A stretch of 26,745 bases of DNA from a virus. The DNA lies in the IMG/VR virus record IMGVR_UViG_3300031673_000399, positions 1 through 26,745 of that record. One strand, given 5' to 3'. Below, in pieces: positions 2,585-22,440 of this stretch; position 1 is the first letter of the stretch; each line of letters starts with the position of its first letter. Under the pieces are notes generated by a model, which had not been told where the DNA came from, made no database searches, and was given only the letters and a program-made list of their open reading frames with translations. Made by a program: the position numbers and the translations under genes.

Positions 2585-4711
2585 CTATCTTTTCTTTTTA
2601 TCTTTTATTCCATCAAATAACCATGCATTTCCTTGATATGGGTTTAATGGTGATATACTATTTGGTGAAATCATTGGTTTATGTTTAATTTCCCTCTTAC
2701 TTCCAATCTCACTTATATCATTATTAGTGAGTATAGCATTTAACATTTTTTCGGTAATTCCCTTACTTTGTTTAAATCTTGCCATGTCGAAATTCAATAC
2801 AAATAATCCAATTGCTAAACCCATAATACTATCATCATGGAATGTACGTTTATGGTCAGCAACACGATTTCCAGCCACCGTAACGAATGTTTTTAATTCA
2901 TTTAATAGTCTTGTAGACCTAATAACAACATCCTCTAAATGGATGGCTCTCTGCATTTCAAGCACAACTGATGGACGGTTGTTTCCGATAAAGAAACCGG
3001 GGATTAGGTCTACGTTTGAAACCGCACCATCAGGCATTACTTTCTGACCTCTTTTAATATATCCAGATAACCTGTCTCTTGTTGGTTTATGTGCTACTTC
3101 AGCATAATGAACATTTTCATAACCGATTTCAAGTAGTTTCTCAACAGTATGAACACCATGACCACCAGTAACATCAACAACACAATATGCATCATTATAT
3201 CGTTTTCCGTATTGATATGCGATTTCTGCAAGTTGTTGTGGACTTATTTTTCCGTAATATTCGGCAACCTGTTCGACCTTATGTCGTTTTATTTTAACCT
3301 TTTTTGTTTTTCCGTTTTTCGTAACCACCTTCTCTTCAACCACTTCGGTAGTTTTCAACATATTTAGTGTTGAATTATCCTCTCCGTGCCCGGGCGAGGC
3401 ATCTAATGCCATTATATAATCTTCACCAACAACAGGGTCTTCCCAAACCCACATATTTCCATCAAGATATTCTTGACGTAATGGTGTTTGGATTTCATCA
3501 TCTTGTATTCGTTTAAGATATTCTTCGGCAATAAAGTTGTCACCAGAACCGAGAAATGAACAAAGTAATTCCTGCGCAACTTTACGCATATCACCATTGG
3601 CGTTACGAATCTGTTCATCAAACCATTCATTGGTTGCTTCCCAACCATCTTCTATAAGTTGACTTCGTTGTGCATGTGACCTACCCTCATCTTCTAATTT
3701 GATTTCATTTGTTTTGCCTTTATTTTTAACCCAATACAAACCCTGATTATATCTTGGGTCGTTATACCACCAGAGTTCAACAGCGTGAAAATTGTTTTTA
3801 CTTCGACCATCTTCATCAAGTTCTCTTGCACCCATGAATGTCTTATAGAAAACAGCATCGAGTCCAGATGGTGTACTAACCATGATTGCACGACCACCAG
3901 TTACCAATGAAGGTAGTGCTGCTGTCCAGAACTTATCACCCTTTTCTGCCCATGCTGTTTCATCCCAGAACAACAGTGTTGGTGTCATACCACGTAAAGT
4001 CTTAGATGCGAATGCACCGAGTTTCGAATCGTTATCGTAAATCTTAAGTTTTTGCGTATCTTTTAAGTTCTTTTCGGTATTTCTACCAGTTTTAGGTCTG
4101 AGCCAAGAAGGGCAGCAATCAATGAATTCCACAACATCACTCATTAATTCACCTGTAGCGGTTTCCAGTTTATCGGCAACGATTGCAACGGCTCTGTTTC
4201 TATTAAACATAACATACCATGCAATATATGCACAAGTTGTTGTTGAAACACCAGCCTGACGATATTTATTGGCTACGACAAATCGGTTATCAAGATAACT
4301 TTTAATTAATTCTTTCTGGAAATCAAATAGTTTAAATGGAACAATCATACCAGCAACACCCTGAGTCTGGTCAAAAATTGTTAAATAGGTTTCGATAAAA
4401 TAAATAGGATTTGCAGCGCAACGAACAATTTCGTCTTCTTGTTCTTGAAATGTTAACTCACTGGCTTTTTTTATAACACCTGCTTTGGTGACAATAATAG
4501 GTTCAACATTAGTAGCAGCCTTCCTGAGTTTTCTTGCCTGTTTTCTGGCTTCTTCCTTTTCTCTTTCCTTTTGTGCATCATATGGAATCAATGGAATGTG
4601 TTCGGGAAAATCAGAATCGTCTTTTTCGGGAGTAGAATCTAAATTAAGATTTATATTAATTTTATCTTTTTCAGAAGCAGCGTCTAAATTAAGGTCGAAT
4701 TCGGTACTCAT
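2585..4711 (-). CDS. terL: Terminase large subunit (T4 gp17-like)
   Basis: This 708-aa ATP-driven DNA packaging motor and headful nuclease is longer than T4 gp17 (610 aa). The ATPase domain has a Walker A region KYRQAGVSTT (residues 149-158), in which the usual GK[ST] lysine position is not Lys. The Walker B motif LLFWDE is at 246-251 and the coupling motif STPSG at 279-283. The C-terminal RNase H-like nuclease has acidic residues in ALDASPGHGED (D437), VVDVTGGHG (D513) and FHDDSIMGLA (D626/D627). An N-terminal acidic and then Arg/Lys-rich stretch (residues 1-65) precedes the motor. The portal gene follows directly; the sheath and tube genes that separate 17 and 20 in T4 are absent here. No small terminase is visible nearby. 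Confidence 0.95.
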   Translation of the reverse strand: MSTEFDLNLDAASEKDKININLNLDSTPEKDDSDFPEHIPLIPYDAQKEREKEEARKQARKLRKAATNVEPIIVTKAGVIKKASELTFQEQEDEIVRCAANPIYFIETYLTIFDQTQGVAGMIVPFKLFDFQKELIKSYLDNRFVVANKYRQAGVSTTTCAYIAWYVMFNRNRAVAIVADKLETATGELMSDVVEFIDCCPSWLRPKTGRNTEKNLKDTQKLKIYDNDSKLGAFASKTLRGMTPTLLFWDETAWAEKGDKFWTAALPSLVTGGRAIMVSTPSGLDAVFYKTFMGARELDEDGRSKNNFHAVELWWYNDPRYNQGLYWVKNKGKTNEIKLEDEGRSHAQRSQLIEDGWEATNEWFDEQIRNANGDMRKVAQELLCSFLGSGDNFIAEEYLKRIQDDEIQTPLRQEYLDGNMWVWEDPVVGEDYIMALDASPGHGEDNSTLNMLKTTEVVEEKVVTKNGKTKKVKIKRHKVEQVAEYYGKISPQQLAEIAYQYGKRYNDAYCVVDVTGGHGVHTVEKLLEIGYENVHYAEVAHKPTRDRLSGYIKRGQKVMPDGAVSNVDLIPGFFIGNNRPSVVLEMQRAIHLEDVVIRSTRLLNELKTFVTVAGNRVADHKRTFHDDSIMGLAIGLFVLNFDMARFKQSKGITEKMLNAILTNNDISEIGSKREIKHKPMISPNSISPLNPYQGNAWLFDGIKDKKKR

Positions 4712-8489: not shown

Positions 8490-8738
8490 TTATATTATTT
8501 CGCTCTTTTGGTCAATTATTTTATGTTTGACGAGCATTTCATATACTCTGGGTGTTATCAGATTTTTTCTCTTAAAGTCCTCAATAACCGATTGATTAAC
8601 CTTTTTATGTGAAACGTTCTCATTTAAGAACTTCACATTTTTATGCAAACTCTCTACTATGTCATAGAAAACTTTTTCTGCTTTTTTTCTTTCGACATAT
8701 TCGTTTAGTTGTGCTTTGGTTACTAAAAATGTTTTCAT
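8490..8738 (-). CDS. Small 82-aa basic helical protein, probably virion-associated
   Basis: The start ATG (8738) is 3 nt after the stop of the nucleotidyltransferase gene, so the two are translationally linked. The sequence is rich in Lys, Val and Glu, with AQLNEYVERKKAEKVF and VKFLNENVSHKK. Both contain LNE, the form of the prohead cleavage rule used by the tagged proteins nearby. The C-terminal part, RKNLITPRVYEMLVKHKIID, looks like a small helical domain. No known family is recognised. Position in the late block and the LNE sites suggest a head protein, as inference. Confidence 0.75.
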   Translation of the reverse strand: MKTFLVTKAQLNEYVERKKAEKVFYDIVESLHKNVKFLNENVSHKKVNQSVIEDFKRKNLITPRVYEMLVKHKIIDQKSEII

Positions 8739-9577: not shown

Positions 9578-10075
9578 TTATTTACCAACTTTTGCAATAG
9601 CAGCAACAGGAACTTTGGGTTTGGCTTCATCCAATTCCTTTTTTTCTTCTTTTTTACCCTCTTCTTCGCCTTCTTCTTCACCTTTTTCGAACTCAGGACT
9701 TTCCTTCTTCTCGTGTTCCTTACCTTCTTCGTCCTTTTCGTCTTCTTTCTCACCCTTTTTCTTATCGAAGTTCCATTCCTGAAGATTTTCTGGTTCAATT
9801 TCACCAGTATCAACACTAATTTCTTCTGGTTCTTCAGCACTTTCTTCACCATGAAGTAGTGCATAAAGTTCATCAACTTTTGCAGTTAATTCCGCAAGTT
9901 TTTCTTCTGGTGATTTTTCTTCAACAGGAGCGTCTTCCATACTTCCCATAGATGGTTCAGCAGGAACTTCAGCAGTTGCTTCTATTTCTTCGAAACCTTC
10001 ATTTAATTTGGGTTTGAATGTTTTATCGAGTCTTCCCATGACTTCGAATAATCTTTGTTTGTCATTTCTTTTCAT
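9578..10075 (-). CDS. Acidic internal head protein with N-terminal capsid-targeting-like tag
   Basis: The 165-aa protein starts with a basic tag (QRLFEVMGRLDKTF at 7-20) ending in KLNE (23-26), which fits the T4 prohead protease rule (I/L)-x-E. After that it is extremely acidic (EEIEATAEVPAEP, then long Glu/Lys runs) and ends with KPKVPVAAIAKVGK. Composition and tag resemble T4 prohead core and internal peptide precursors such as gp67, but with no clear sequence match. The late motif lies 34 nt upstream. The Glu/Lys codon runs create long false reading frames on the other strand. Confidence 0.8.
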   Translation of the reverse strand: MKRNDKQRLFEVMGRLDKTFKPKLNEGFEEIEATAEVPAEPSMGSMEDAPVEEKSPEEKLAELTAKVDELYALLHGEESAEEPEEISVDTGEIEPENLQEWNFDKKKGEKEDEKDEEGKEHEKKESPEFEKGEEEGEEEGKKEEKKELDEAKPKVPVAAIAKVGK

Positions 10076-10109
10076 ATTCTTGATTTTAATTGTTTTTCAT
10101 CTTTATTTA

Positions 10110-10119
10110 TTATAAATAC
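10110..10119 (-). promoter_or_regulatory. Late-promoter-like motif GTATTTATAA
   Basis: The minus-strand motif sits one base past the stop codon of the GP88-like gene and 34 nt before the ATG at 10075. Confidence 0.6.
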
Positions 10120-10120
10120 T

Positions 10121-11245
10121 TTAATGATACAATAGAAACGTTCTTTGCACATCTTTTCTTTGAGCAGCTATATCACCCTGACCCTTTGGTAGCACAATCA
10201 CGTTCCATTTTTGTTCAGTGCCAACAGGTATTTTAAGCATATCATCATACATTATTAAGGTATTCGTATCCACATTGAACTTATCAGCTATTCGTTGCTT
10301 AAGAATATTCAGACTTTCAGGACTGGCTGGAATTAGTTTTCCAGCATCATCAACCTTTAGATGTGCCCTGTCTTTAAGAAACAAGTCTTTAAATAATTCC
10401 GATGGCACGATTTCTGACGTTTTTGCCTTAGACAAATCAACTTTTTCTCTTTCTTTTTCTGCTGCATCAACAGAAAAATTTAATGTCATGTTCGGGTCAT
10501 TGAGATTATAAACGTCACCCATTTTTGTATGAGCATATGATTCGAACTTATATCCTTTTGCCTGTAATTCTTTTGTTATATCAGCAGCAATTTTAAAATA
10601 TTTTTTTGAAAAGAAATCACCAGCATCATTCCATCTAAAAAGCACCTTCTTCCCTTTATTTTTCCAAACAAGCGGTTCAATTTCATGTTTCAGTAGTTTT
10701 TCAAACAATTCGGGGTCATTAAGTAATAGATTTAAAACTCGTGTTTGTTTTCCGAACACATTTGGAAGCATAATATAATTACCACGTCTTGCATAACAAA
10801 CTTTGGCACATGCCCCAGCACCGGGGCAGGTATTTACGACATAAAATTTTTTGTGTTCAATATCATAAACAATACCACGTAATGCGGGAATACCAATATT
10901 AAAAGTAATTGAATTATCAGCACCTGATTTTTCCATTTTTTCATTCTGGCTATATAATTGTGCTGGCATTTTTGTTATGTTTTGAATAAATGCCTGAACA
11001 TCAATTTCACCCTTTTCATCAAATGGGATTGCTTTATTATGAACCAATAATGATGCCTTCGTTCTTTTATCTGATGGAAGTTTTTGATTAGCAAGAATTT
11101 TATTAAAATAATCTTTCAATGCTTCATCATTAATACATTCTTTGGAAACGTCACTGAATTCGCCTTCCCAATCAATCTCATTAATAGGCATTCCTGCGAC
11201 CCTATTCATCATTTCGATAAGTCGCTGTCCACCATATTTCGTCAT
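10121..11245 (-). CDS. GP88-like phage protein with N-terminal capsid-targeting-like tag
   Basis: The 374-aa protein begins with the shared tag (QRLIEMMNRVAGM at 7-19) and INE at 21-23. Its core has the Cys signature NTCPGAGACAKVCYARRGNY (C140, C146, C150), which I associate with the phage gene-product-88 family, a conserved domain of unknown function. Other conserved-looking stretches are VLFRWNDAGDFFSKKYF and FESYAHTKMGDVYNLNDP. Three clustered Cys could bind a metal or an Fe-S cluster; this is not proven. The tag suggests delivery into the capsid, from which the protein could enter the host with the DNA. The late motif lies 14 nt upstream. The family match is from memory of the motif and should be confirmed by a profile search. 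Confidence 0.78.
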   Translation of the reverse strand: MTKYGGQRLIEMMNRVAGMPINEIDWEGEFSDVSKECINDEALKDYFNKILANQKLPSDKRTKASLLVHNKAIPFDEKGEIDVQAFIQNITKMPAQLYSQNEKMEKSGADNSITFNIGIPALRGIVYDIEHKKFYVVNTCPGAGACAKVCYARRGNYIMLPNVFGKQTRVLNLLLNDPELFEKLLKHEIEPLVWKNKGKKVLFRWNDAGDFFSKKYFKIAADITKELQAKGYKFESYAHTKMGDVYNLNDPNMTLNFSVDAAEKEREKVDLSKAKTSEIVPSELFKDLFLKDRAHLKVDDAGKLIPASPESLNILKQRIADKFNVDTNTLIMYDDMLKIPVGTEQKWNVIVLPKGQGDIAAQRKDVQRTFLLYH

Positions 11246-11259
11246 ATGAATTAATTTTT

Positions 11260-11269
11260 CTATAAATAC
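11260..11269 (-). promoter_or_regulatory. Late-promoter-like motif GTATTTATAG
   Basis: The minus-strand motif lies 14 nt before the ATG at 11245. It is divergent from the plus-strand copy at 11294-11303. Confidence 0.6.
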
Positions 11270-11293
11270 AGAATTATTAATTAAAGTCAGTGA

Positions 11294-11303
11294 GTATTTA
11301 TTA
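11294..11303 (+). promoter_or_regulatory. Late-promoter-like motif GTATTTATTA
   Basis: The motif lies 16 nt before the ATG at 11320. Its position argues against the upstream GTG at 11290 as the true start, because the motif would then be inside the gene. Confidence 0.6.
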
Positions 11304-11319
11304 TAAATTCCTGTACAAA

Positions 11320-13362
11320 ATGAATTTAGAATGCTTAAACGACATAATAACCACTAATCTGGCAATACACATTGACCTAACAGACCTAAACTCATGGGAC
11401 TTAAACACTGGTCTAACATCATTCAGTTTAACAAAATGGTCTGGTGCGGTATCAGATGACCTTGATTTAATTGATTTCGGATTAACTGGATTTGATAACG
11501 GTAGAACAAACATTATGTGGAATGGTATTACAATCAGACCACAAGATACATTATTTTCCATGTACAGAGTTGGATATAATGAAGTCTGGAATCCAACAAC
11601 TGGAGAAACAAGCGGGATTACTGCAATAACACAATTTTTACCGATATCAGCAATAACATCAGGCATAAGTGGAAACTATTTTGATTTATCAGGTGGATAT
11701 TTACAGGGATTCTTTAAATTAGAGGATTATAATTATGAGTTGTTACCTGCACGATACGGTAGTGGTATAACAATTGAAACCCTATTATATCTTTATCCCG
11801 ATTCACAGGGTATTTTCTATATGATGGGCGCACGTGCGGAAGATAAATATAATCCGTATTTCAGTGGTGAAACCACAACTGGAAGTACAATTACTGGTGT
11901 CACAACAAGTCTTGATAATTTTCTTGACGCACTTGAACCCCATGAAGTGATTAAACCAGCATTTAGTTCTCCAGAATCTAACATGTATGAAACCCAATAT
12001 CGTGAAATTCCACCTCTTGATAATATCAAGAGCAACGCAATTGCTTTCGAACTAACTCAAGACAAGAAATTAGCATATAAATATGTTAATGCCGATGGTC
12101 TTGTTGTGACAAATACGTCAGCATCAGCAATTTATCCAACAACGGGTTGGACAATGATTACAATGGTTTTCACACCAGATGATATTATCACAGACCCAGC
12201 AGTTTTGGAATGTAAAGAACAAAGATTCGGTAAATTAATATTCTATGTCAATGGTCGTGCAATTTGGATAATTAAGGAGTTCCCAGAATTTTATTTCCAC
12301 GGTTTTACAAACGACAAGGAAAAACAATTAGGTGTACCATATTCAATAAGTTGGGGTGGTGGTAGTTTTGGATTGGCTGAATCTTGGCATTACGATTATC
12401 AAACCTACGTAATATATAATAGTGAAGACCAAAATTATATCGACACAAAATTCTTTGTTGAACCAGACCCGATTCCAACAGAATGTTACACACCACCAAC
12501 TGGTGACACATATCTTGCTGGATTATCTATAAGTGCAGACAGCACAACATTTACATACGTTGAGACCTGTGCACCCGATGTGGAACAACCACTTACAGTA
12601 ATGCGTATCGAATATACTGGTGGAACTGGTAACACGTACTTCGTAAAGTTTATGCAACCAATTTCCGTAATATCAAACCGAGATTATGTCGCCAACCTAT
12701 CTGTATTTGTTGATGGAATTTTTGACAGTGAAGCCACAAATAAAATCAATATATTGACCTATAGTGATGATGTTGATATTAATGTCGTTAGTGATATCGA
12801 ATATGTGTTTCCAGTAACTACAGCATATCTTCAAACTTTATATGGTGCGGGATTACATCCGTTCCCAGACGGACAAGAATATGAATGGGTTGTTGATGGT
12901 ATTATGTATTATGGTGTTTCAGGACTTCAAGTCACACCAGAAAACGCATTAGTTGTTGGATATGGACAAACACCAGAATCAGTGGTCAACTATTATTCAA
13001 CAGGTGACAATACTTGGTTACCAGTAAAAAGCGTTTTCAGAACACCAGATAATACGGGACAGAATTTCATAACTATGGGTTTATTGATTGAAAGTAGTGC
13101 CGAACTCCTAACTGGTGGTACTATTTACATTAAAGATTTTGAATATACTGCTGCTGATATTTTGGTGCAAGACGAAAGAAAATTTGACCTGACTATTGAA
13201 CAAAACTTCGATTATAGTTTCACAGGTGGAATACAGAAACTCAGAGTATATGATAGGGCGTTCACCTCACCAGAAGTATTACACAATGCACTAATTGAAG
13301 TCAAAACCGACCCAACAAAAAACATGTTGGTGAGTAAAGGTGGAAGAATAATTTATAGATAA
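11320..13362 (+). CDS. LamG-like virion surface or tail protein, 680 aa
   Basis: I choose the ATG at 11320 (MNLECLNDIITTNLAIHIDL) over the in-frame GTG at 11290, because the late-promoter motif lies between them. The protein is beta-rich, Thr/Gly/Tyr-rich and lacks membrane segments. A concanavalin A/LamG-like jelly roll is suggested by the repeated pattern GKLIFYVNGRAIWII and by the C-terminal GIQKLRVYDRAFTSPEV, where LamG domains typically end. The tail TKNMLVSKGGRIIYR resembles ends of phage tail or capsid-decoration proteins. Likely role: receptor or glycan binding at the tail or head surface. The next gene overlaps its stop as TAATG. Confidence 0.78.
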   Translation: MNLECLNDIITTNLAIHIDLTDLNSWDLNTGLTSFSLTKWSGAVSDDLDLIDFGLTGFDNGRTNIMWNGITIRPQDTLFSMYRVGYNEVWNPTTGETSGITAITQFLPISAITSGISGNYFDLSGGYLQGFFKLEDYNYELLPARYGSGITIETLLYLYPDSQGIFYMMGARAEDKYNPYFSGETTTGSTITGVTTSLDNFLDALEPHEVIKPAFSSPESNMYETQYREIPPLDNIKSNAIAFELTQDKKLAYKYVNADGLVVTNTSASAIYPTTGWTMITMVFTPDDIITDPAVLECKEQRFGKLIFYVNGRAIWIIKEFPEFYFHGFTNDKEKQLGVPYSISWGGGSFGLAESWHYDYQTYVIYNSEDQNYIDTKFFVEPDPIPTECYTPPTGDTYLAGLSISADSTTFTYVETCAPDVEQPLTVMRIEYTGGTGNTYFVKFMQPISVISNRDYVANLSVFVDGIFDSEATNKINILTYSDDVDINVVSDIEYVFPVTTAYLQTLYGAGLHPFPDGQEYEWVVDGIMYYGVSGLQVTPENALVVGYGQTPESVVNYYSTGDNTWLPVKSVFRTPDNTGQNFITMGLLIESSAELLTGGTIYIKDFEYTAADILVQDERKFDLTIEQNFDYSFTGGIQKLRVYDRAFTSPEVLHNALIEVKTDPTKNMLVSKGGRIIYR

Positions 13363-13565
13363 TGGGTAGGTTGCAGGAAATCTATGAAGGTTGGAAGAAT
13401 TTCACATTCCCAAATCCCACGATTGAGAAAGAAGCGAAAAGAAGAATCGAAATCTGTGTTGGTTGTCCTAAATTAAATGATAGAAATTTTTGTGCATTAT
13501 GTGGTTGTTATATGCCAGCAAAAGCCAGAAGTCCTAAGTCACATTGTAGAATAAAGAAGTGGTGA
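13362..13565 (+). CDS. Small Cys-rich (zinc-ribbon-like) protein
   Basis: The 67-aa protein is translationally coupled by a TAATG overlap to the preceding virion gene. Six Cys occur in the pattern CVGCPKL...FCALCGCYMPAKARSP...CRIKKW. This CxxCP...CxxCGC...C-K-W layout is shared by a family of small phage and Bacteroidota proteins (DUF6171-like, from memory) expected to bind zinc. The N-terminal half (LQEIYEGWKNFTFPNP) is helical. Function is unknown; coupling to the tail-type gene suggests an assembly or chaperone role. It abuts the convergent cupin-like gene with no spacer. Confidence 0.8.
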   Translation: MGRLQEIYEGWKNFTFPNPTIEKEAKRRIEICVGCPKLNDRNFCALCGCYMPAKARSPKSHCRIKKW

Positions 13566-13973
13566 TTAACGATTTGATGTAATCACATATGTGTCTTGCA
13601 ACGCAATACCATGAAATTCATCAGTATCCAGACAGAATTTCTTATATGGTGTTAAATAACGGGTTTGGGTATCTTCAACGATTTCAAGTTTACCACTTAA
13701 ACATGCAATGCATTTGATGTAGTCTCTTTTTTTACGTTCGATTATTGCGCCTTTAGGTAAGAAATAAAATATCGTGATATCTTCTGGTTTATTATCATCA
13801 ATAATTCGTCTGAATTTAATATCATTAATACAATCATCCCATTCAGTAAAGAATCGAATAATAATACCATCACCAATTTCATGAATAGATGGAAGACCTT
13901 TAAGTAATTCAGTTTTTCTCTTACTAATTAACTTGTCAATCTTCTCTAATATTATTTTTTTTTCCTCTGTCAT
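13566..13973 (-). CDS. Cupin-like small protein
   Basis: After an N-terminal coiled helix (residues 1-25), the 135-aa protein has the strand pattern of a single-domain cupin: FYFLPKGAIIERKKRDYIKC, a CLSGKLEIVED hairpin, then LTPYKKFCLDTDEFHGI. The usual metal-binding HxH is not present; H120 is the only obvious candidate, so metal catalysis is doubtful. Its ATG is one base after the stop of the 206-aa gene, so it is probably the second gene of that unit. The stop directly abuts the stop of the Cys-rich gene on the other strand. Confidence 0.7.
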   Translation of the reverse strand: MTEEKKIILEKIDKLISKRKTELLKGLPSIHEIGDGIIIRFFTEWDDCINDIKFRRIIDDNKPEDITIFYFLPKGAIIERKKRDYIKCIACLSGKLEIVEDTQTRYLTPYKKFCLDTDEFHGIALQDTYVITSNR

Positions 13974-13974
13974 T

Positions 13975-14595
13975 TTAACAATATGGTATATTTCGTATAT
14001 TATCTACTTGTTTTAAATCGATTACATAATCACCATGATTTTCAATATTACTTTCACAATATTCCCTAACAAAAAGAGTTTGAATTTTTTCTGGTGCTTT
14101 CTCAAATGCTGTAAATTCGATTTCATCACCATTCATAGTATATAAGGTAACAACGATATTATCCCAATCAATATAATCAATCCAATCACCACCAGAAGGT
14201 GCTTCTGAATCATCAACACTTGCCCCATAACGTCCAGCATTATAGTCGCTATCCATTGTTATTTCAATCCTATCACCATTAAAACCCAAACTAAAATTAA
14301 TTGGTTCTTTTGTTTGGTCATATTTATATTTAATATTTAGATTAATCTCGATATTCAAAGAATTTGGGGTTCTAAAAATTGCACCACCAGCATCATCACT
14401 AATAACATTGTCCGTAATTTCAACAACAATTTTATCGTTTCTATTCAAAAGACTGTCACAAATAAACTGTTTTTGTAGGTCTTCATTTAATAATAAATCC
14501 GTCACCTCTTGTTCCTTAAGGAATTCATCATTACCTAAAAAGTCAAAATTCGATATTTCTTCGTTAATGATTTTGACAAAATCTTTGTTATTCAT
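13975..14595 (-). CDS. Unknown 206-aa acidic protein with basic-helix N-terminus
   Basis: The N-terminus MNNKDFVKIINEEISNFDF is an amphipathic segment. It is followed by FLKE and LLNE, which fit the (I/L)-x-E rule, so this may be a divergent member of the tagged internal-protein set. The core (NLNIEINLNIKYKYDQ, then GGDWIDYIDWDNIVVTLYTM and DEIEFTAFEKAPEKIQTLF) is beta-rich and acidic and looks like a conserved phage protein of unknown function. The late motif lies 13 nt upstream; the cupin-like gene follows with a 1-nt gap. Confidence 0.78.
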   Translation of the reverse strand: MNNKDFVKIINEEISNFDFLGNDEFLKEQEVTDLLLNEDLQKQFICDSLLNRNDKIVVEITDNVISDDAGGAIFRTPNSLNIEINLNIKYKYDQTKEPINFSLGFNGDRIEITMDSDYNAGRYGASVDDSEAPSGGDWIDYIDWDNIVVTLYTMNGDEIEFTAFEKAPEKIQTLFVREYCESNIENHGDYVIDLKQVDNIRNIPYC

Positions 14596-14608
14596 ATGAT
14601 GTTATTTT

Positions 14609-14618
14609 TTATAAATAC
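14609..14618 (-). promoter_or_regulatory. Late-promoter-like motif GTATTTATAA
   Basis: The minus-strand motif lies 13 nt before the ATG at 14595. Confidence 0.6.
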
Positions 14619-14672
14619 ACAAAATATTAGTAAAAAATTATTTTTTATTTGGTAATAAAATGGGGTTGTGGA

Positions 14673-14682
14673 GTATTTATGT
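14673..14682 (+). promoter_or_regulatory. Late-promoter-like motif GTATTTATGT without a gene
   Basis: A plus-strand copy of the motif is followed only by frames of 10-13 codons and, 120 nt later, by a terminator. It probably drives a non-coding RNA. Confidence 0.45.
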
Positions 14683-14836
14683 TTGAAAGTCATTGCTTAA
14701 TTATGTATTAAGTTAGGTCTGAGTAAATCAGGAATGGTTTTTAAATTTTATCGCCAGACAGTGGTTATGTAAAATTTATGACTTGACTAAATTTAGAACA
14801 GGTAATTGCACTCTTAAAACGGGTGCAATTATTTTT
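14683..14836 (+). ncRNA. Candidate small RNA between a late motif and a terminator
   Basis: About 150 nt lie between the motif at 14673 and the terminator at 14805-14836. Only tiny frames (MFESHCLIMY and a 12-codon frame) occur, so no protein is credible. The 3' end would be the 9-bp terminator stem. I see no match to a known RNA family. This is the only stretch of the left half without a credible protein gene. Confidence 0.35.
14805..14836 (+). terminator. Rho-independent terminator
   Basis: ATTGCACTC (14805-14813) pairs with GGGTGCAAT (14821-14829, one G-U pair) around a 7-nt loop and is followed by TATTTTTAT. No protein gene ends just before it. Confidence 0.75.
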
Positions 14837-14848
14837 ATGTATATTTTT

Positions 14849-14858
14849 GTATTTATAA
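14849..14858 (+). promoter_or_regulatory. Late-promoter-like motif GTATTTATAA
   Basis: The motif lies 13 nt before the ATG at 14872, with an A/T-rich leader and no Shine-Dalgarno sequence. Confidence 0.6.
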
Positions 14859-14871
14859 TAAATTTGATATT

Positions 14872-15216
14872 ATGAAAAAAGATAGTACAAAAAAAATGCT
14901 TTTCGAAGCAATGCATAAAGTAGGTGGAATGCCATTGAATGAAGAAGAGTATTCGGATTATTTGGATACAAATTATAGTGCCGATGGTTTAGAGGATGCA
15001 AATGCCGATGAAGATACAAAACAATATATCTACGATTTATATGATGCAGGGAAAAAAGCAATGAATGTTGCAAAAAATGGTAAACTTTATGGTGATGATA
15101 ATGGTGCTGGTGATAGGAATAAACTAATACAAGTCGCTAATACGTCAAGGCAAATGGCATTAGAAATGGGCGCATCTTTGGGGTGGGGAGAAGCAGAATT
15201 ACCGCCTTATAATTAA
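14872..15216 (+). CDS. 114-aa protein with N-terminal capsid-targeting-like tag
   Basis: The first 24 residues form the shared basic tag (LFEAMHKVGGM at 10-20, then P and LNE at 22-24), which fits T4-type prohead cleavage. The mature part would be about 90 residues, acidic at first (YSDYLDTNYSADGLEDANAD) and then helical (TKQYIYDLYDAGKKAMNVAK), ending GWGEAELPPYN. No family is recognised. It is transcribed alone from a late motif, on the opposite strand to most other tagged genes, so the tag is not inherited with an operon. Inferred role: internal head protein injected with the DNA. Confidence 0.78.
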   Translation: MKKDSTKKMLFEAMHKVGGMPLNEEEYSDYLDTNYSADGLEDANADEDTKQYIYDLYDAGKKAMNVAKNGKLYGDDNGAGDRNKLIQVANTSRQMALEMGASLGWGEAELPPYN

Positions 15217-15229
15217 AAAATCAATAATT

Positions 15230-15260
15230 TTTGTAACATTTTCGATTTTTTTTCGTAGAA
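15230..15260 (+). promoter_or_regulatory. Bipartite promoter TTTGTAACAT-N12-TTCGTAGAA before tRNA array 1
   Basis: TTTGTAACAT (15230-15239) and TTCGTA (15252-15257) are 12 nt apart. TTTG matches the Bacteroidota -33 element; the downstream box TAGAAT is less typical. It precedes the leader peptide and attenuator of the first tRNA array. Confidence 0.65.
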
Positions 15261-15265
15261 TGTTT

Positions 15266-15275
15266 GTATTTATGA
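15266..15275 (+). promoter_or_regulatory. Late-promoter-like motif GTATTTATGA overlapping the array-1 promoter region
   Basis: The motif begins 8 nt after the TTCGTA box and 48 nt before the leader peptide, so array 1 may be served by both promoter classes. Confidence 0.4.
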
Positions 15276-15323
15276 TTTTAATGCATATATTTGCATTGTA
15301 TTTAAAAGTTAGTTTTTAGAAAG

Positions 15324-15395
15324 ATGAAAAATTTAGTGAACATACAACCCCAACCGCAACAGCATCCAATTGTTGAATGGGGAAGGTATGCCTGA
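15324..15395 (+). CDS. Leader peptide of tRNA array 1 (23 aa)
   Basis: The short frame MKNLVNIQPQPQQHP... ending VEWGRYA is preceded by AGAAAG. Its first codons and leader closely resemble those of the 28-aa leader at 19849. Codons 18-20 (GAA TGG GGA) contain the arm that can pair with the downstream terminator. Two His/Gln/Pro-rich codon runs (CAA CCC CAA CCG CAA CAG CAT CCA) fall where the array supplies tRNA-Pro, tRNA-His and tRNA-Gln. That is what a tRNA-sensing leader would use. Confidence 0.6.
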   Translation: MKNLVNIQPQPQQHPIVEWGRYA

Positions 15396-15456
15396 ATTTT
15401 TTCGAGAGAAGTTTTAGGTTAAACATGAACCCCATTCGCAAGAGTGGGGTTTTTTT
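15375..15456 (+). promoter_or_regulatory. Attenuator of tRNA array 1
   Basis: GAATGGGG (15375-15382, inside the leader peptide) is perfectly complementary to CCCCATTC (15430-15437). The latter is also the left arm of the terminator (right arm 15442-15450, then T6). The two pairings exclude each other, the layout of a translation-controlled attenuator. The leader is rich in Pro, Gln and His codons, and the tRNAs downstream are Pro, His and Gln. Low charged tRNA would stall the ribosome before the arm, free it to pair, and allow read-through into the array. Confidence 0.6.
15429..15456 (+). terminator. Terminator arm of the array-1 attenuator
   Basis: ACCCCATTC and GAGTGGGGT form a 9-bp stem (one G-U pair) with a GCAA tetraloop and T6. 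Confidence 0.85.
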
Positions 15457-15473
15457 ATTAAAAAATTTAAACA

Positions 15474-15602
15474 ATGGGAAAAGAAAAAAGTAAAGAAAAG
15501 AAACTGAAGAAGTTGAACGACCAATTGAAAAGTCATTCAGATAATCCGAGAATGGTAGCAAATCTGAAGGCAAGAATCTTGACCGTTAGTAAGGGTAAAT
15601 AA
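15474..15602 (+). CDS. Small basic 42-aa protein
   Basis: It starts MGKEKSKEKKLKKLNDQLK and ends ARILTVSKGK; it is strongly basic and helical. It lies between the attenuator and the first tRNA, 6 nt before tRNA-Pro, so it is probably co-transcribed with the array. Size and charge suggest an RNA-binding or ribosome-associated peptide, without further evidence. Confidence 0.6.
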   Translation: MGKEKSKEKKLKKLNDQLKSHSDNPRMVANLKARILTVSKGK

Positions 15603-15608
15603 ATTGTA

Positions 15609-15681
15609 CGGGGTGTAGCGCAGTTGGTAGCGTATCTGGTTTGGGACCAGAGGGTCGTGGGTTCGAGTCCCGCTACCCCGA
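15609..15681 (+). tRNA. tRNA-Pro (UGG)
   Basis: Acceptor CGGGGTG pairs with TACCCCG. Anticodon stem TCTGG/CCAGA carries loop TTTGGGA (TGG). The Pro identity features C1-G72 and A73 are present and the T-loop is canonical. CCA is not encoded. Confidence 0.93.
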
Positions 15682-15688
15682 CAAACAA

Positions 15689-15782
15689 CAGGGAGTGAGC
15701 GAGTGGTTGAAGCTACTGGTCTTGGAAGCCAGTGAGGGCACAAAGGCGTTGTCTTCCGTGGGTTCGAACCCCACCTCCCTGA
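15689..15782 (+). tRNA. Long-variable-arm tRNA with UGG anticodon (identity uncertain)
   Basis: Acceptor CAGGGAG/CTCCCTG is perfect. The D-arm is of Ser/Leu type. The loop CTTGGAA lies between CTGGT and GCCAG, so the anticodon is TGG. The variable arm is 25 nt with a 7-bp stem (GAGGGCA/TGTCTTC). A type II body is normal for Ser, Leu and Tyr, but the anticodon is Pro and C1-G72/A73 are Pro identity elements. It may derive from tRNA-Ser(UGA) by one change in the anticodon. Confidence 0.75.
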
Positions 15783-15787
15783 CAAAT

Positions 15788-15861
15788 GGTGGCTGTAGCT
15801 CAATTGGTAGAGCACCAGATTGTGGTTCTGGACGTTGCGGGTTCGAGTCCCGTCAGTCACC
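15788..15861 (+). tRNA. tRNA-His (GUG)
   Basis: Stem CCAGA/TCTGG carries loop TTGTGGT (GTG). An extra G at 15788 faces C73, the His-specific G-1:C73 pair. Acceptor GTGGCTG pairs with CAGTCAC. Confidence 0.93.
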
Positions 15862-15866
15862 CAAAG

Positions 15867-15996
15867 TATCGTGTGAAAACACGATAAAATGAAAATATCG
15901 TGTCTGGATAGCATAAAATGAAAATATGCATTAATTACACGATATTATACCCGAACAGGTATAAAAGGGTCAAAATTGACTTAATTATACCCGAAC
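15867..15996 (+). repeat. Spacer of nested hairpins and short direct repeats
   Basis: TATCGTGT/ACACGATA (15867-15886) closes a GAAA tetraloop. AATATCGTGT (15894-15903) pairs perfectly with ACACGATATT (15937-15946) around an inner GCATA/TATGC hairpin. ATAAAATGAAAATAT occurs twice (from 15884 and 15913), and TATACCCGAAC occurs twice (15946 and 15986). These look like RNA-processing structures between tRNAs; no gene is seen. Confidence 0.6.
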
Positions 15997-16005
15997 GGGA
16001 TTATT

Positions 16006-16078
16006 CGAGTAGTAGCGAAGTTGGTATCGTGCTGCATTTGGGATGCAGAGACCGCAGGTTCGAGTCCTGCCTATTCGA
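16006..16078 (+). tRNA. tRNA-Pro (UGG), second copy
   Basis: Acceptor CGAGTAG/CTATTCG has C1-G72 and A73. Stem CTGCA/TGCAG carries loop TTTGGGA, identical to the loop of the first tRNA-Pro, while the body differs. Confidence 0.92.
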
Positions 16079-16080
16079 CT

Positions 16081-16156
16081 GTGTTAGTTGCAGATGTTGG
16101 TAGTCTGTGCGTGACTGTGAATCACGTATACGGGGGTTCGATTCCCCTCTAACACC
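16081..16156 (+). tRNA. tRNA with GUG anticodon lacking G-1 (His-like)
   Basis: Acceptor GTGTTAG/CTAACAC is perfect. Stem CGTGA/TCACG carries loop CTGTGAA (GTG); T-stem GGGGG/CCCCT is sound. C73 is present, but the base before position 1 is T, so the G-1 needed by bacterial HisRS is missing from the gene. It is the deviant partner of the His tRNA at 15788. Confidence 0.8.
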
Positions 16157-16163
16157 CAAAATA

Positions 16164-16198
16164 CATGATAAAATAAAGTGATACTTTAGATTATCATG
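16164..16198 (+). repeat. Nested spacer hairpin
   Basis: CATGATA (16164-16170) pairs with TATCATG (16192-16198); inside, AAAGT (16175-16179) pairs with ACTTT (16183-16187) around GAT. The AAAGT-GAT-ACTTT element resembles the palindromes at 20381 and 20442. Confidence 0.5.
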
Positions 16199-16212
16199 GA
16201 AAAACGTGATAT

Positions 16213-16284
16213 TGTCTCGTGGTGTAATGGCAACACAACTCCCTCTGAAGGAGAAAAGTAGGGGTTCGACTCCCTTCGAGACAA
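16213..16284 (+). tRNA. tRNA-Gln (CUG)
   Basis: Acceptor TGTCTCG/CGAGACA has the Gln-typical U1-A72. The loop CTCTGAA (CTG) sits on a 4-bp CTCC/GGAG stem. T-loop and D-stem GTGT/ACAC are canonical. Confidence 0.88.
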
Positions 16285-16289
16285 CAAAT

Positions 16290-16370
16290 TGTCCTCTGGC
16301 AGAACGGCTATTGCATCGCCCTTTGAAGGCGACACCGAAAGGTTTGTGGGTTCGAATCCCACGGGGACAT
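16290..16370 (+). tRNA. tRNA-Gln (UUG) with enlarged variable region
   Basis: Acceptor TGTCCTC/GGGGACA and stem TCGCC/GGCGA with loop CTTTGAA (TTG) are sound. The variable region is 13 nt (CACCGAAAGGTTT) and can form ACC-GAAA-GGT; Gln tRNAs normally have 4-5 nt. The discriminator is T. Confidence 0.75.
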
Positions 16371-16376
16371 CTAAAT

Positions 16377-16463
16377 GGGGGTGTAGCTTAACAAAAAAAG
16401 TGTACACTTGAAAGTGCTGCCATTGGAGGCAGAGATGTAGGTGGAAACCCTACCATCCCACCA
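16377..16463 (+). tRNA. Degenerate tRNA-like RNA with encoded CCA
   Basis: GGGGTG pairs with CATCCC. The T-stem GTAGG/CCTAC carries an abnormal loop TGGAAAC. Stem CTGCC/GGCAG has a 6-nt loop ATTGGA. The D-loop is enlarged to about 22 nt by a palindromic insert (AAGTGTACACTT) and lacks G18-G19. ACCA is encoded at 16460-16463, unlike the canonical neighbours. Its 3' half is clearly related to the RNA at 22291. Confidence 0.5.
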
Positions 16464-16464
16464 T

Positions 16465-16537
16465 TGTCCTCTGGTGTAATTGGCAACACGTCTGATTTTG
16501 GTTCAGAAGAGTGCAAGTTCGAGCCTTGCGGGGACAA
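16465..16537 (+). tRNA. tRNA-Gln (UUG)
   Basis: Acceptor TGTCCTC/GGGGACA; stem TCTGA/TCAGA with loop TTTTGGT (TTG); D-stem GTGT/ACAC. It is the regular partner of the deviant Gln tRNA at 16290, with the same acceptor. Confidence 0.92.
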
Positions 16538-16540
16538 CTA

Positions 16541-16570
16541 TTTGTAACATTTCTTGTTATTCTTCGTATA
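16541..16570 (+). promoter_or_regulatory. Bipartite promoter TTTGTAACAT-N12-TTCGTATA
   Basis: TTTGTAACAT at 16541-16550 and TTCGTATA at 16563-16570 follow directly after tRNA-Gln and precede the three-gene unit starting at 16600. Confidence 0.7.
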
Positions 16571-16599
16571 ATGAATTACATTTGCATAAAAGATTTATT

Positions 16600-16824
16600 A
16601 TGAACGCAGAAGAATTACTTTTATATTTTAAGGAATGTGTTGAAAAATTGGATATTCAAGAGTTTGAACCAATTATCACACCAACCATGTATGACCCAAC
16701 AGAGTTGCAGCATGATGTAACTATTGTTATTATGGAAAAAGTTGAGGGTGGTACTATACCGAGATTCAGTATAAATGTTAAAGATTTGGAAGGAATTCGA
16801 AACTTAAGAAGAATAGGATTATGA
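16600..16824 (+). CDS. Unknown 74-aa protein
   Basis: I choose the ATG at 16600, after the promoter, because a longer frame would run into tRNA-Gln. The protein starts MNAEELLLYFKECVEKLD, with a core EFEPIITPTMYDPTELQHDV and end GIRNLRRIGL. It is acidic with a likely helix then strands. It is the first gene of a three-gene unit; its stop overlaps the next start as ATGA. No family is recognised. Confidence 0.72.
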   Translation: MNAEELLLYFKECVEKLDIQEFEPIITPTMYDPTELQHDVTIVIMEKVEGGTIPRFSINVKDLEGIRNLRRIGL

Positions 16825-16970
16825 GCAAACTAAGAGTAGGACACAAAGAAAATTCATTCCTGAATGGTGAATGGGCGGGACACGTTAGAAAATGGGGTAA
16901 GAAGTGGACTGCTAAAATCCGTAGAAACGTAGATAAGAAAGTAATAAAAAAAGAAACCAATGAGTTATAA
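16821..16970 (+). CDS. Small basic 49-aa protein
   Basis: It starts MSKLRVGHKENSFLNGEWAG and continues with the basic HVRKWGKKWTAKIRRNVDKK. It overlaps the previous gene by 4 nt (ATGA) and the cREC gene by 11 nt, so the three are co-translated. Its net positive charge and Trp residues suggest nucleic-acid binding, for instance to the RNA substrate of the cREC protein, but this is only inference. Confidence 0.7.
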   Translation: MSKLRVGHKENSFLNGEWAGHVRKWGKKWTAKIRRNVDKKVIKKETNEL

Positions 16971-17382
16971 ATTATTCCTTGATGATGTCAGGAGACCAGA
17001 AACCACGTTTCATTACATGGGACTTCAGGTTTTCAACGAACCCGATTGGATTATCGTCAGGAATTATTATGCTTTTATTTCACTTGTTCAAACAAAAGGT
17101 TTACCCGAATTAATTGCTTTCGACCATGACCTTGCTGATGAACATTATAAGCAACAGGATTTTGACTACGACAGGGAAGATTACGAAAAAACTGGATATC
17201 ATTGTGCCAAGTGGCTTATTGATTATTGCATGGACAATAATAAAGAACTCCCGAAAGAAATCATCATACACTCTATGAATCCTTACGGGAGTCGAAATAT
17301 CAAATCATTGTTTGATACTTATATTAAGGTCTATAATCTCAAACACACACCAATTCAAATCCTTGCCAGTCATCTAAGATAA
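16960..17382 (+). CDS. Cyclic-phosphate-processing receiver (cREC) domain protein
   Basis: The 140-aa protein is a stand-alone receiver-like domain. It has LFLDDVRRP (D8, D9) at the N-terminus, DWIIVRNYYAF, the hallmark AFDHDLAD (D55, H56, D57), TGYHCAKWLIDYC and IIHSMNPYGSRNI (H104 to I113). This matches the cREC family, predicted from comparative genomics to process cyclic phosphate ends of RNA or cyclic nucleotides, often beside RNA-repair genes. Here it is the third gene of a unit directly after a tRNA array, which fits repair of cleaved tRNAs. No RNA ligase is seen in the window. Family assignment is good; the reaction is a prediction. Confidence 0.82.
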   Translation: MSYKLFLDDVRRPETTFHYMGLQVFNEPDWIIVRNYYAFISLVQTKGLPELIAFDHDLADEHYKQQDFDYDREDYEKTGYHCAKWLIDYCMDNNKELPKEIIIHSMNPYGSRNIKSLFDTYIKVYNLKHTPIQILASHLR

Positions 17383-17398
17383 ATCTATCTTAAGACAA

Positions 17399-18556
17399 TT
17401 ATCTCTTAGATTTGCCTGTAGAACTTCCACTTGAACTCCTGCTTACACTTCCACTTGAACTTCTACCTACACTTCCACTTGAAACGCTTCTTGAAGGCGT
17501 ACTATAACTTCTACTTGACTGAGTTGCTGGTTTTGAATAACTTTGACTTCTCTGTGGTGTAGAATAAGTACGTGATTGAGTACGTACAGGTGTACGTGTA
17601 ACTGTGCTTCTTTGAGCATTTGAAGATGGTCTTGTTATAATGTTTCTGTTTTGAGTACTTTGCTGTACACCTCTACTTTCAGGTCTGGTTGTAGTAGTTA
17701 TTCTGTTTCGATTTACATTACTGTTATTATATTGTGGACGTGTAGCCATTCTCGGATTACTATACGATGGTGTATAGGTTCTATTGCTTTGATTATATGT
17801 TGGCTTATTCTGTCTTTGAGTATTTACAGCTTGTCTGGTTTCTTGTGGTCGAGTTGCCACAACATTCTTCTTGCTTGCTGTTGGTGCACTCAGGTATCCT
17901 TCACGATATGTATTATTGTATTGTTGATAATAGTTTCTATTGCGACCTAAAGCACTTGAAGCAGCATATCGCTGTCCATGTGGTTGGCTGTAAGACCTAT
18001 TATAATATGTGTTATGTCCCCAATAACCGTAATAAGACCTATTATAATATGGGTTGTAACCCCAATAATTATAGCTATTATATGGATAATACCAATCATT
18101 ATAGTAGAATGGGTCATAATAACCATAATATGGTTGATAATATGGACTCCATAAGTAGCCAAATGTCAATGAAAAACGGAGATTTGGCTGGTTATAATCA
18201 CTGTAATAATTGTTAATTACAACAGGTTCAGCATCTTGTTCGACAACGATGTAAACCGTATCAGTTTTTGTTGTGTCGGGTTCACCAAATCTTTCTCTGT
18301 CTTTCTGTATACGATATTTTTCGTAGTTGCTGAGTTTTCTTATAGTGTCTTGAGGATATACAAATACCTGTGGCAATAAATTAGCATTCTCATAGAGATA
18401 ACGCATTAATTCACGTTCACTCATTTCCTCAAAATTAACATCATCGAAATTAGAAACAATTGCTTCTCCTTCATATACCAATTTTGTTGGTCTTTCTTTT
18501 GCAAATACTGAGAAAGATAACAGTAATGTGAGTGTTAGTAATAATAGTTTTTTCAT
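17399..18556 (-). CDS. Secreted Tyr/Asn/Ser-rich low-complexity protein
   Basis: The 385-aa protein has a signal peptide (MKKLLLLTLTLLLSFSVFA, cleavage near residue 19). A conserved-looking region follows to about residue 125. Residues 130-190 are strongly aromatic, with repeats of the NRSYYGYWG and YYDPFYYNDWYYPYN type. A basic Ser/Thr/Arg/Gln-rich tail ends SGSVGRSSSGSVSRSSSG. Such exported Tyr-rich proteins occur in Bacteroidota genomes; I infer acquisition from a host and export to the periplasm or cell surface of the infected cell. Neither phage promoter motif precedes it, which sets it apart from its neighbours. Superinfection exclusion or surface modification is possible but untested. 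Confidence 0.75.
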   Translation of the reverse strand: MKKLLLLTLTLLLSFSVFAKERPTKLVYEGEAIVSNFDDVNFEEMSERELMRYLYENANLLPQVFVYPQDTIRKLSNYEKYRIQKDRERFGEPDTTKTDTVYIVVEQDAEPVVINNYYSDYNQPNLRFSLTFGYLWSPYYQPYYGYYDPFYYNDWYYPYNSYNYWGYNPYYNRSYYGYWGHNTYYNRSYSQPHGQRYAASSALGRNRNYYQQYNNTYREGYLSAPTASKKNVVATRPQETRQAVNTQRQNKPTYNQSNRTYTPSYSNPRMATRPQYNNSNVNRNRITTTTRPESRGVQQSTQNRNIITRPSSNAQRSTVTRTPVRTQSRTYSTPQRSQSYSKPATQSSRSYSTPSRSVSSGSVGRSSSGSVSRSSSGSSTGKSKR

Positions 18557-18626
18557 AGTGTATGTGTTTCTTAATTAAAAGCAATATATGTGCCAGAGTT
18601 CATTAAAATTAATAATTTAACAATTA

Positions 18627-19190
18627 TTAATGTTTATACATCACCCAATCATTACCATCAATCTCGTATGTTATATCATTGTGTTCAGAACAGAATTCAT
18701 CAACTGCTTGTTTAACTGGTTCGAACGTATAATAATCTATAATCATCACACCACCTTTTCTAAGTTTTGGGAAAAAGTTATCTAAATCTGCTTTAGTTCC
18801 TTCATATCTATGGTCACCATCCACATAAACTAAATCGATTGATTCGTCTTCAAATCTTTTATATGCAATAATAGATGATTCACTTATTACATCAATATCA
18901 TCTAACATATCACATGCTCTCATATTCTCTTCAAATACCCTGTAGACATTCCCACCTAACTTCTTAGCAATTTCTCCTACAGGGAGACCTTCAGTTCCCT
19001 TCCATGTGTCTATGACATAGAATTTAATCTGCTTCTTTTCTTCTTTAATTTTCTGCACCATGTATGCAGTTCCTTTTCCGAACCAAGCACCAATTTCTAC
19101 AAACACACCAGAGTCAAATCCTTTTAAGATTAAGTCGAATTTCTTTTCAAATTTGAACCAACCCGTTATATTTTTATATGTTTGTTGCAT
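18627..19190 (-). CDS. Class I SAM-dependent methyltransferase
   Basis: The 187-aa protein has motif I as VFVEIGAWFGKGTAYM (E32-G40), an acidic ribose-binding position at VIDTWKG (D61), and SIDLVYVDGDHRYEGTKADL (119-136), followed by LRKGGVMIIDYY. This is the Methyltransf_24-like pattern found in phage and sugar-biosynthesis genes, with small-molecule or glycan substrates most likely. It has a late motif only 5 nt upstream of the ATG, divergent from the tagged gene at 19255. The substrate cannot be read from sequence. Confidence 0.85.
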   Translation of the reverse strand: MQQTYKNITGWFKFEKKFDLILKGFDSGVFVEIGAWFGKGTAYMVQKIKEEKKQIKFYVIDTWKGTEGLPVGEIAKKLGGNVYRVFEENMRACDMLDDIDVISESSIIAYKRFEDESIDLVYVDGDHRYEGTKADLDNFFPKLRKGGVMIIDYYTFEPVKQAVDEFCSEHNDITYEIDGNDWVMYKH

Positions 19191-19195
19191 TTCGT

Positions 19196-19205
19196 TTATA
19201 AATAC
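19196..19205 (-). promoter_or_regulatory. Late-promoter-like motif GTATTTATAA
   Basis: The minus-strand motif lies 5 nt before the methyltransferase ATG, the shortest spacing in the window. It would give a nearly leaderless mRNA. Confidence 0.55.
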
Positions 19206-19231
19206 ATGGTAATACTTTTAGCATGGAAAAA

Positions 19232-19241
19232 GTATTTATGA
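19232..19241 (+). promoter_or_regulatory. Late-promoter-like motif GTATTTATGA
   Basis: The motif lies 13 nt before the GTG start at 19255 and is divergent from the copy at 19196-19205. Confidence 0.6.
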
Positions 19242-19254
19242 AAAATCTGATGTT

Positions 19255-19725
19255 GTGAAAAAAGATAATAGACAAAGACTTTTTGAAATGATGAATAAAG
19301 TTGGTGGTATGACACTAACAGAATTCAGTACAGAATCAAAATATGATTACGAAAATAAATATCAGAATTTAATTGAATTCATTGGTGAATCACAAGGATA
19401 TAACAATTTTTTACACACAACTAAAACCGAAGAAAATACCAAATCAATATGTCAAAATGGTTTTCGATTTGAACTATTCCAAAAGACAACCGATTATGTT
19501 GGTAACGTTGCTGCCTTAGTATATATGTTATCTATTAGACAACCATATGGAAATTTCACTATTATTATTCAAATAAGCAGTAGTATTCGTGATTATGAAT
19601 CCATAAGTGAAATGACAACTGATGATGAGGGTAATGAAATATTCATTCTCCCACCACAATATGTTAAAGGATATTATAATAGAACCACAAGAGAAATATT
19701 TCCAAACCCATTATTTAAAAAATAA
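19255..19725 (+). CDS. Tagged protein with a possible ADP-ribosyltransferase-like fold
   Basis: The 156-aa protein starts at GTG. Its first 23 residues are the shared tag (QRLFEMMNKVGGM at 7-19, then T, LTE at 21-23). The mature part contains NNFLHTTKTEENTKSICQNG, which resembles the H-x-T strand and following helix of ART-fold proteins (compare LYHGT...I...GF). Towards the end FILPPQYVKGYYN resembles the strand after the catalytic Glu. In T4 the Alt ADP-ribosyltransferase is delivered from the head through a comparable N-terminal peptide, so the combination is suggestive. The fold call is weak and needs structure prediction; the tag is clear. Confidence 0.72.
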   Translation: MKKDNRQRLFEMMNKVGGMTLTEFSTESKYDYENKYQNLIEFIGESQGYNNFLHTTKTEENTKSICQNGFRFELFQKTTDYVGNVAALVYMLSIRQPYGNFTIIIQISSSIRDYESISEMTTDDEGNEIFILPPQYVKGYYNRTTREIFPNPLFKK

Positions 19726-22020: not shown

Positions 22021-22102
22021 CCTCTCATGGTGGAATTGGTAGACACGCATGTCTTAGGAACATGTGCCGTAAGGTGTGTCGGTTCGAGTCCGACTGAGAG
22101 GA
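22021..22102 (+). tRNA. tRNA-Leu (UAG)
   Basis: Acceptor CCTCTCA/TGAGAGG; stem CATGT/ACATG with loop CTTAGGA (TAG); long variable arm (TGCCGTAAGGTGT); A73. Leu tRNAs usually have G1-C72; here C1-G72. Confidence 0.9.
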
Positions 22103-22111
22103 CAATAGCAT

Positions 22112-22194
22112 GGGGATGTGCTGGAATGGTATACAGGGCGGTTTGAGAGACCGTTGCTCGAAAGGGCGTAGGGGTTCGACTCCCCTCATCCTCA
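22112..22194 (+). tRNA. tRNA-Leu (GAG)
   Basis: Acceptor GGGGATG/CATCCTC; stem GCGGT/ACCGT with loop TTGAGAG (GAG); long variable arm (TGCTCGAAAGGGCGT); A73. Confidence 0.9.
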
Positions 22195-22197
22195 CAA

Positions 22198-22280
22198 GCG
22201 AGAAACTGTGGGGTTGATGTTCCTCCCATTAAGGAATGTCCTCTAAGATATACCGTGCACAGGTAGTTTTAGGGTCTCGC
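22198..22280 (+). ncRNA. Structured RNA 2 (83 nt) with a CAU-containing hairpin
   Basis: GCGAGA pairs with TCTCGC at the ends. TTCCT/AGGAA forms a 5-bp stem with a 7-nt loop CCCATTA that has CAT at the anticodon position. A second hairpin is CTCTAA/TTAGGG enclosing TACC/GGTA. There is no canonical T-arm. It lies directly before the CAU tRNA-like RNA at 22291, so it may be an anticodon-arm mimic or a highly degraded tRNA. Confidence 0.45.
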
Positions 22281-22290
22281 AACCAATAAT

Positions 22291-22359
22291 GGGGTATGTG
22301 TTAAGTCTTTAAGTCGGGTTCATGACCGAAGTAGGTTAAAATCCTGCCATATTCCACCA
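22291..22359 (+). tRNA. tRNA-like RNA, probable CAU anticodon, encoded CCA
   Basis: GGGGTAT pairs with ATATTCC and ACCA is encoded. The anticodon arm TCGG/CCGA has an 8-nt loop GTTCATGA. The T-stem GTAGG/CCTGC has loop TTAAAAT, in which C56 is lost, and the D-region has no GG. At about 66 nt before CCA it is short. Its T-arm and 3' end resemble those of the RNA at 16377. Confidence 0.55.
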
Positions 22360-22360
22360 T

Positions 22361-22434
22361 GCGGACGTAGCCGAACTGGTATAGGCAACGGTCTCAGACA
22401 CCGTAATTTGTGGGTTCGAATCCCACCATCCGTA
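22361..22434 (+). tRNA. tRNA with Leu anticodon CAG but short variable loop
   Basis: Acceptor GCGGACG/CATCCGT has one A-C mismatch. Stem ACGGT/ACCGT carries loop CTCAGAC (CAG); D-stem GCC/GGC; variable loop only AATTT. Bacterial Leu tRNAs are type II, so this is atypical. CCA is encoded at 22435-22437. Confidence 0.78.
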
Positions 22435-22440
22435 CCACAT

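Follow-up and report, generated by a model that had tools for sequence, protein, structure and literature searches.

A common N-terminal tag on four genes of the window

In the 26,745-base virus record analysed here (the window), four genes, distributed over 10 kb and both strands, open with the same N-terminal tag of 23-26 residues. The gene at 9578..10075 (minus strand) encodes a Glu/Lys-rich protein of 165 amino acids and belongs to the commonest tagged family, which accounts for 43 of the 152 tagged ORFs described below. Its tag, MKRNDKQRLFEVMGRLDKTFKPKLNE (9998..10075, minus), is predicted to be cut after LNE and represents a second subtype, with DKTFKP in place of the GGM seen in the other three. 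The gene at 10121..11245 (minus) encodes a 374-residue protein with a GP88 domain (Pfam PF17338, E 2.1e-23) and begins with the GGM-subtype tag MTKYGGQRLIEMMNRVAGMPINE (11177..11245, minus; predicted cut after INE). On the plus strand, 14872..15216 encodes a 114-residue protein without an assigned function, consisting of the GGM-subtype tag MKKDSTKKMLFEAMHKVGGMPLNE (14872..14943; predicted cut after LNE) and a tail that resembles part of tagged L056 (7708-7971). The fourth gene (19255..19725, plus, GTG start) encodes a 156-residue protein, also without an assigned function, that has tagged homologs in three other contigs; its GGM-subtype tag, MKKDNRQRLFEMMNKVGGMTLTE (19255..19323, plus), is predicted to be cut after LTE.

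The first-pass annotation had described these four proteins as sharing an N-terminal tag on otherwise unrelated sequences. All four tags are present at these protein starts, with scores of 7e-14 to 8e-11 against a tag profile whose seeds include these four, and BLASTP found no match among the remainders (best E 0.57). The labels proposed for the remainders fared unevenly: GP88 is supported by the Pfam match, while an ADP-ribosyltransferase (ART) fold for 19255-19725 was not confirmed, with no Pfam, PHROG, or PDB match and a model pLDDT of 44. An AlphaFold model of the GP88 protein has low confidence over residues 1-35, after which the confident fold starts, so that the tag is modeled as a disordered segment outside the fold. 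A fold search with this model returned no PDB match below 0.001 and only weak barrel matches, which include IspG and radical-SAM enzymes, none of them significant. GP88 proteins also keep three cysteines in a C-x5-C-x3-C arrangement (residues 140-150 of the protein at 10121-11245, minus).

Elsewhere in the window are a T4-type portal protein (gp20; 501..2513, minus; PF07230, E 1.3e-62) and a T4-type terminase large subunit (2585..4711, minus; PF03237, E 1.3e-7, and PHROGs). A T4-like head module, comprising homologs of gp17, gp20, gp21, and gp23, is present across the window and its relative G008. Adjoining the tagged genes are genes for an 843-residue protein (5881-8412, minus) and an 82-residue protein (8490-8738, minus) that are rich in [LI]NE, an enrichment seen in the window and in relatives. 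These two may be prohead core proteins that are cut many times, for which the enrichment is only suggestive. Between 15609 and 26583 the window also contains 23 tRNA genes, many of which sit side by side in pairs with one anticodon, together with a tmRNA whose tag peptide reads AEDIMSIPTSLTRGNVVFARNAELAIAA.

Spread, late expression, and age of the tag

The first-pass annotation had called for a search of related phages, and there many unrelated proteins turned out to bear the tag. In IMG/VR contigs, DNA patterns covering parts of the tag had 9, 54, and 7 matching stretches, and the profile finds the tag in most of these. An HMM built on the 18-residue tag core, applied to 18,128 ORFs from the window, 16 larger records, and 37 smaller contigs, found 153 tag domains on 152 ORFs. 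Shuffled and reversed sets of 18,128 ORFs each gave no domain at E<0.05, and the 2,499 control ORFs gave none either, which rules out local coincidence. All but one of the domains (152 of 153) stand at a protein start. The exception lies in G018 (26135-27325, plus), where a protein has both an N-terminal and an internal tag, each before an LNE site (ALNE for the internal copy), as if two tagged proteins had been joined into a polyprotein for the protease to separate.

The tag is laid out as a basic start, an RLFExM-[K/R]V stretch, a short spacer, and [L/I]xE, with three spacer subtypes (GGMP, DKTFKPK, and NPDF). Large records carry 1-10 tagged genes, and the set varies between phages; among those above 200 kb there are 5 in G013, 6 in G008, 10 in G007, 6 in G012, 4 in G010, and 1 in G011. 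The tails form 30-35 BLAST-distinct families, depending on the cut-off, a count made partly on contig fragments and in which distant homologs may figure as separate families. A short N-terminal sequence, predicted to be a propeptide, is thus common to otherwise unrelated proteins of one phage.

Besides the Glu/Lys-rich proteins, tagged proteins include GP88, Cupin_2, AAA_33 (P-loop) kinase, and ART-PolyVal domains, the last being an ADP-ribosyltransferase that carries the tag in a relative (PF18760, 2.3e-8). Inspection of the sequences shows, in two further tagged proteins, HELVH motifs of the kind found in zinc proteases. If the tag addresses proteins to the prohead core, its bearers could be core or scaffold parts that are discarded at maturation instead of cargo ejected into the host. 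The commonest tagged protein is Glu/Lys-rich, as T4 core proteins are, and the [LI]NE enrichment of the neighboring 843- and 82-residue proteins is that of multiply cut core proteins. No scaffold role would be expected, however, for the folded enzymes among the tails (ART-PolyVal, kinase, cupin, and GP88), and the variation of the tagged set between phages also argues against discarded core parts, which we consider unlikely.

The late motif attributed to all four genes of the window is indeed there: GTATTTAT lies 16-44 bases upstream of each on its own strand, at 10112..10119 and 11262..11269 (minus) for the genes starting at 10075 and 11245 and at 14849..14856 and 19232..19239 (plus) for those starting at 14872 and 19255. 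The window contains 18 copies, where 2.4 are expected. Across the contigs, 50 of 80 tagged genes have GTATTTAT no more than 45 bases upstream, compared to 440 of 2,253 other genes (p 2.7e-16); only 1 of the 80 has it there in the opposite orientation. The motif also precedes portal, terminase, scaffold-position, and tail genes. This enrichment suggests that the tagged genes are most likely late genes, like the head genes. The T4 late consensus TATAAATA, unlike GTATTTAT, did not separate tagged genes from others.

The frequent joint occurrence of motif and tag, and the position of the genes on both strands, would also be expected of a passive leader, in which a late promoter and the first codons were copied together by recombination without any function at the protein level. 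Within one genome, though, identical tag residues share a codon in 52.7% of cases, where 53.9% is expected for independently chosen codons. The residues are kept while their synonymous codons differ as much as they would if chosen independently, which indicates that the likeness of the tags is maintained by selection and rules out recent copying of gene starts. Many late genes, moreover, have the motif without the tag. A passive leader is therefore largely refuted, and we assign it almost no probability.

Some domains exist in both tagged and untagged forms. The P-loop kinase is tagged in G007 and G017 and untagged in G015, a small domain is tagged in G016 and untagged in G007 and G012, and one domain follows the RLFE tag in G013 (180817), whereas its G012 copy (168625) starts with another short sequence, MNNILKIIREVFQDFIKEA. 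The earlier description of the tag as a movable module is supported by these pairs, but the codon comparison shows that the tags are old and selected, not recently copied. That the tag might be part of a longer homologous domain, which the first-pass annotation had named as grounds for rejecting its proposal, is ruled out by the BLAST comparison of the tails, by the untagged homologs, and by the disordered tag in the GP88 model.

Candidate cleavage site and prohead protease

An [L/I]xE site follows the LFE core by 8-24 residues in 134 of the 152 tagged ORFs and in 28 of 35 family representatives. The background is 13-15% for equally long windows taken from other parts of these proteins and 18-24% for shuffled windows. 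Among the 17 distinct N termini of the GP88 family, all have E at P1 and 16 have L or I at P3, whereas P2 is occupied by 7 different residues and P1' by 8. A fixed E and L/I together with free P2 and P1' positions is the pattern of a protease site. In T4, gp21 cleaves after L/I-x-E (PMC9026906). The proposal that the tag ends in such a site, based on the LNE, INE, LNE, and LTE of the four window genes, therefore extends to most copies, and it agrees with a site in the major capsid protein.

This capsid protein, a gp23 homolog, has a conserved M[I/L]NE followed by S at the predicted cut, about 60 residues in, in 13 records, and the change from I to L is one that the L/I-x-E rule allows. T4 gp23 is cut at residue 65, a comparable place, with N termini in the two proteins too different for the sites to be aligned.

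A gp21-type prohead protease (Peptidase_S77), whose identification had been proposed as a check, is encoded in 14 of the 16 records that bear the tag and reach 60 kb or more, and no such gene lies within the window. No S77 gene was found in the other two large records, G011 and G018, which are possibly fragments. The G008 protease, encoded at 22025-22726, matches the structure of T4 gp21 (5JBL, E 3.5e-12), with the serine within a common SRGxGS stretch. In gene order, a 540-residue scaffold candidate stands between the protease and the major capsid protein. In G009, G010, G014, G016, G020, and G021, the protease gene is broken in frame by about 400 codons (for example, G020 29988-31679), probably by an intein; a portal (G013, 1100 amino acids) and a terminase (G002) likewise look intein-bearing.

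These sites also bear on whether the tag could be a localization signal for some other place, such as a membrane assembly site, a replication compartment, or the tail, with [L/I]xE a chance acidic end of a helix. A head location for the tagged proteins is deduced by analogy, and the tagged P-loop kinases at G007 96561 and G017 32153 have no [L/I]xE site, both of which leave some room for such a signal. On the other hand, [L/I]xE persists across subtypes whose spacers vary in length and sequence, the same motif occurs in the major capsid protein, and a gp21-type protease is present, which together make a destination other than the head quite improbable.

Likeness to known head-import systems

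We think it likely, with considerable confidence, that a group of large uncultured T4-like phages uses the tag as a capsid-targeting sequence (CTS), unlike the T4 CTS in sequence and the same in its working, which the prohead protease would remove from proteins loaded for ejection. As the prohead grows, the basic part of the tag would attach to its scaffold core and bring the protein inside, and the protease would cut after [L/I]xE during maturation and release the mature protein. This protein would then remain with the DNA until ejected into the host, where enzymes such as the ADP-ribosyltransferase, kinase, GP88, and cupin proteins may act early. The Glu/Lys-rich tagged proteins could be core or DNA-packing proteins. 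The first-pass annotation had suggested a head-import system equivalent to that of T4 and built on another tag; the spread of the tag, the gp21-type protease, and the L/I-x-E sites support this, with import and cleavage inferred by analogy.

In T4, the first 10 residues of IPIII are reported to be enough for import into the core, after which the protease removes them (PMC9026906, section 10). Like the T4 CTS, found on IPI, IPII, IPIII, and as the Alt propeptide, and cut according to the gp21 rule (PMC9026906, PMC3012670), the tag is a short N-terminal segment on unrelated proteins with an [I/L]xE end, and the two systems share a gp21-family protease and an ADP-ribosyltransferase among the (here putative) cargo. 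They differ in that there is no sequence similarity (T4 IPII and IPIII read MKTYQEFIAE), in length (22-27 residues for the tag versus 10-19 in T4), and in the number of families served, 30-35 across the tag-bearing group versus three internal proteins and Alt in T4. A further difference is that the tag-bearing genomes hold several subtypes as well as a second tag class. The tag profile does not find the T4 internal proteins, and in the T4 genome it gives only a stretch of gp30.8 (E 0.0125) that is internal, not N-terminal, and that we judge to be chance. The tag is thus outside the T4 CTS sequence family, while by analogy it would work like a T4 CTS.

The profile also found nothing in Flavobacterium phage immuto, Microcystis phage Mel-JY01, or LR756508, which with T4 make up a set that includes the nearest portal relatives. 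By tblastn with a short query the tag was not found in the INPHARED phages, and 25 bacterial contigs with an RLDKTFKP pattern had no tag by profile. No description of the RLFE tag was found in the literature searched, though an earlier one may exist.

In phage P1, an N-terminal packaging signal sends the large protein DarB to the head, and 30 residues suffice (PMC9024508). The tag resembles this in its predicted use of N-terminal residues as a head address; the Dar proteins have no consensus among them (PMC9024508), in contrast to the one consensus on many proteins here. In phiKZ and SPN3US, many internal head proteins are processed after Glu by a gp21 relative (gp175/gp245), as is predicted here, but the phiKZ motif is S/A-x-E, and the parts of the review dealing with these phages describe no common short tag (PMC9026906), unlike the [L/I]xE and common tag of the present group.

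The second N-terminal tag class, M..xIINEEI..(Y/F)LNE, is about as long as the T4 CTS. It opens genes at 13975..14595 of the window (minus strand, MNNKDFVKIINEEI...), G002 29345-30028, G007 50427-50858, and G012 114904-115338, and a scaffold-position protein starts with it as well. The pattern II.E[EQSN][ILMVF] occurs 8.5 times per 1000 in the first ten residues, compared to 0.7 per 1000 past residue 40. A looser motif marks 48 genes in 22 tail families, some of them by chance, and the late motif lies upstream of 23 of 30 second-class genes. We see about an even chance that the RLFE tag and the short IINEEI tag are two unrelated, interchangeable head-import tags, in use at once, that jointly bring in a large set of effectors particular to each phage, so that the tags would list ejected proteins from sequence.

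T4 set out the principle of a removable N-terminal head address with a handful of proteins, and the tag appears to be an independent address that follows the same logic on 30-35 families. If this is correct, a second tag, unrelated to that of T4, would be available for loading proteins into phage heads. The tag would also give the mature N termini of the loaded proteins and predict which uncharacterized phage proteins are carried in the head and pass into the host along with the DNA; counter-defense and host-takeover proteins would be expected among them.
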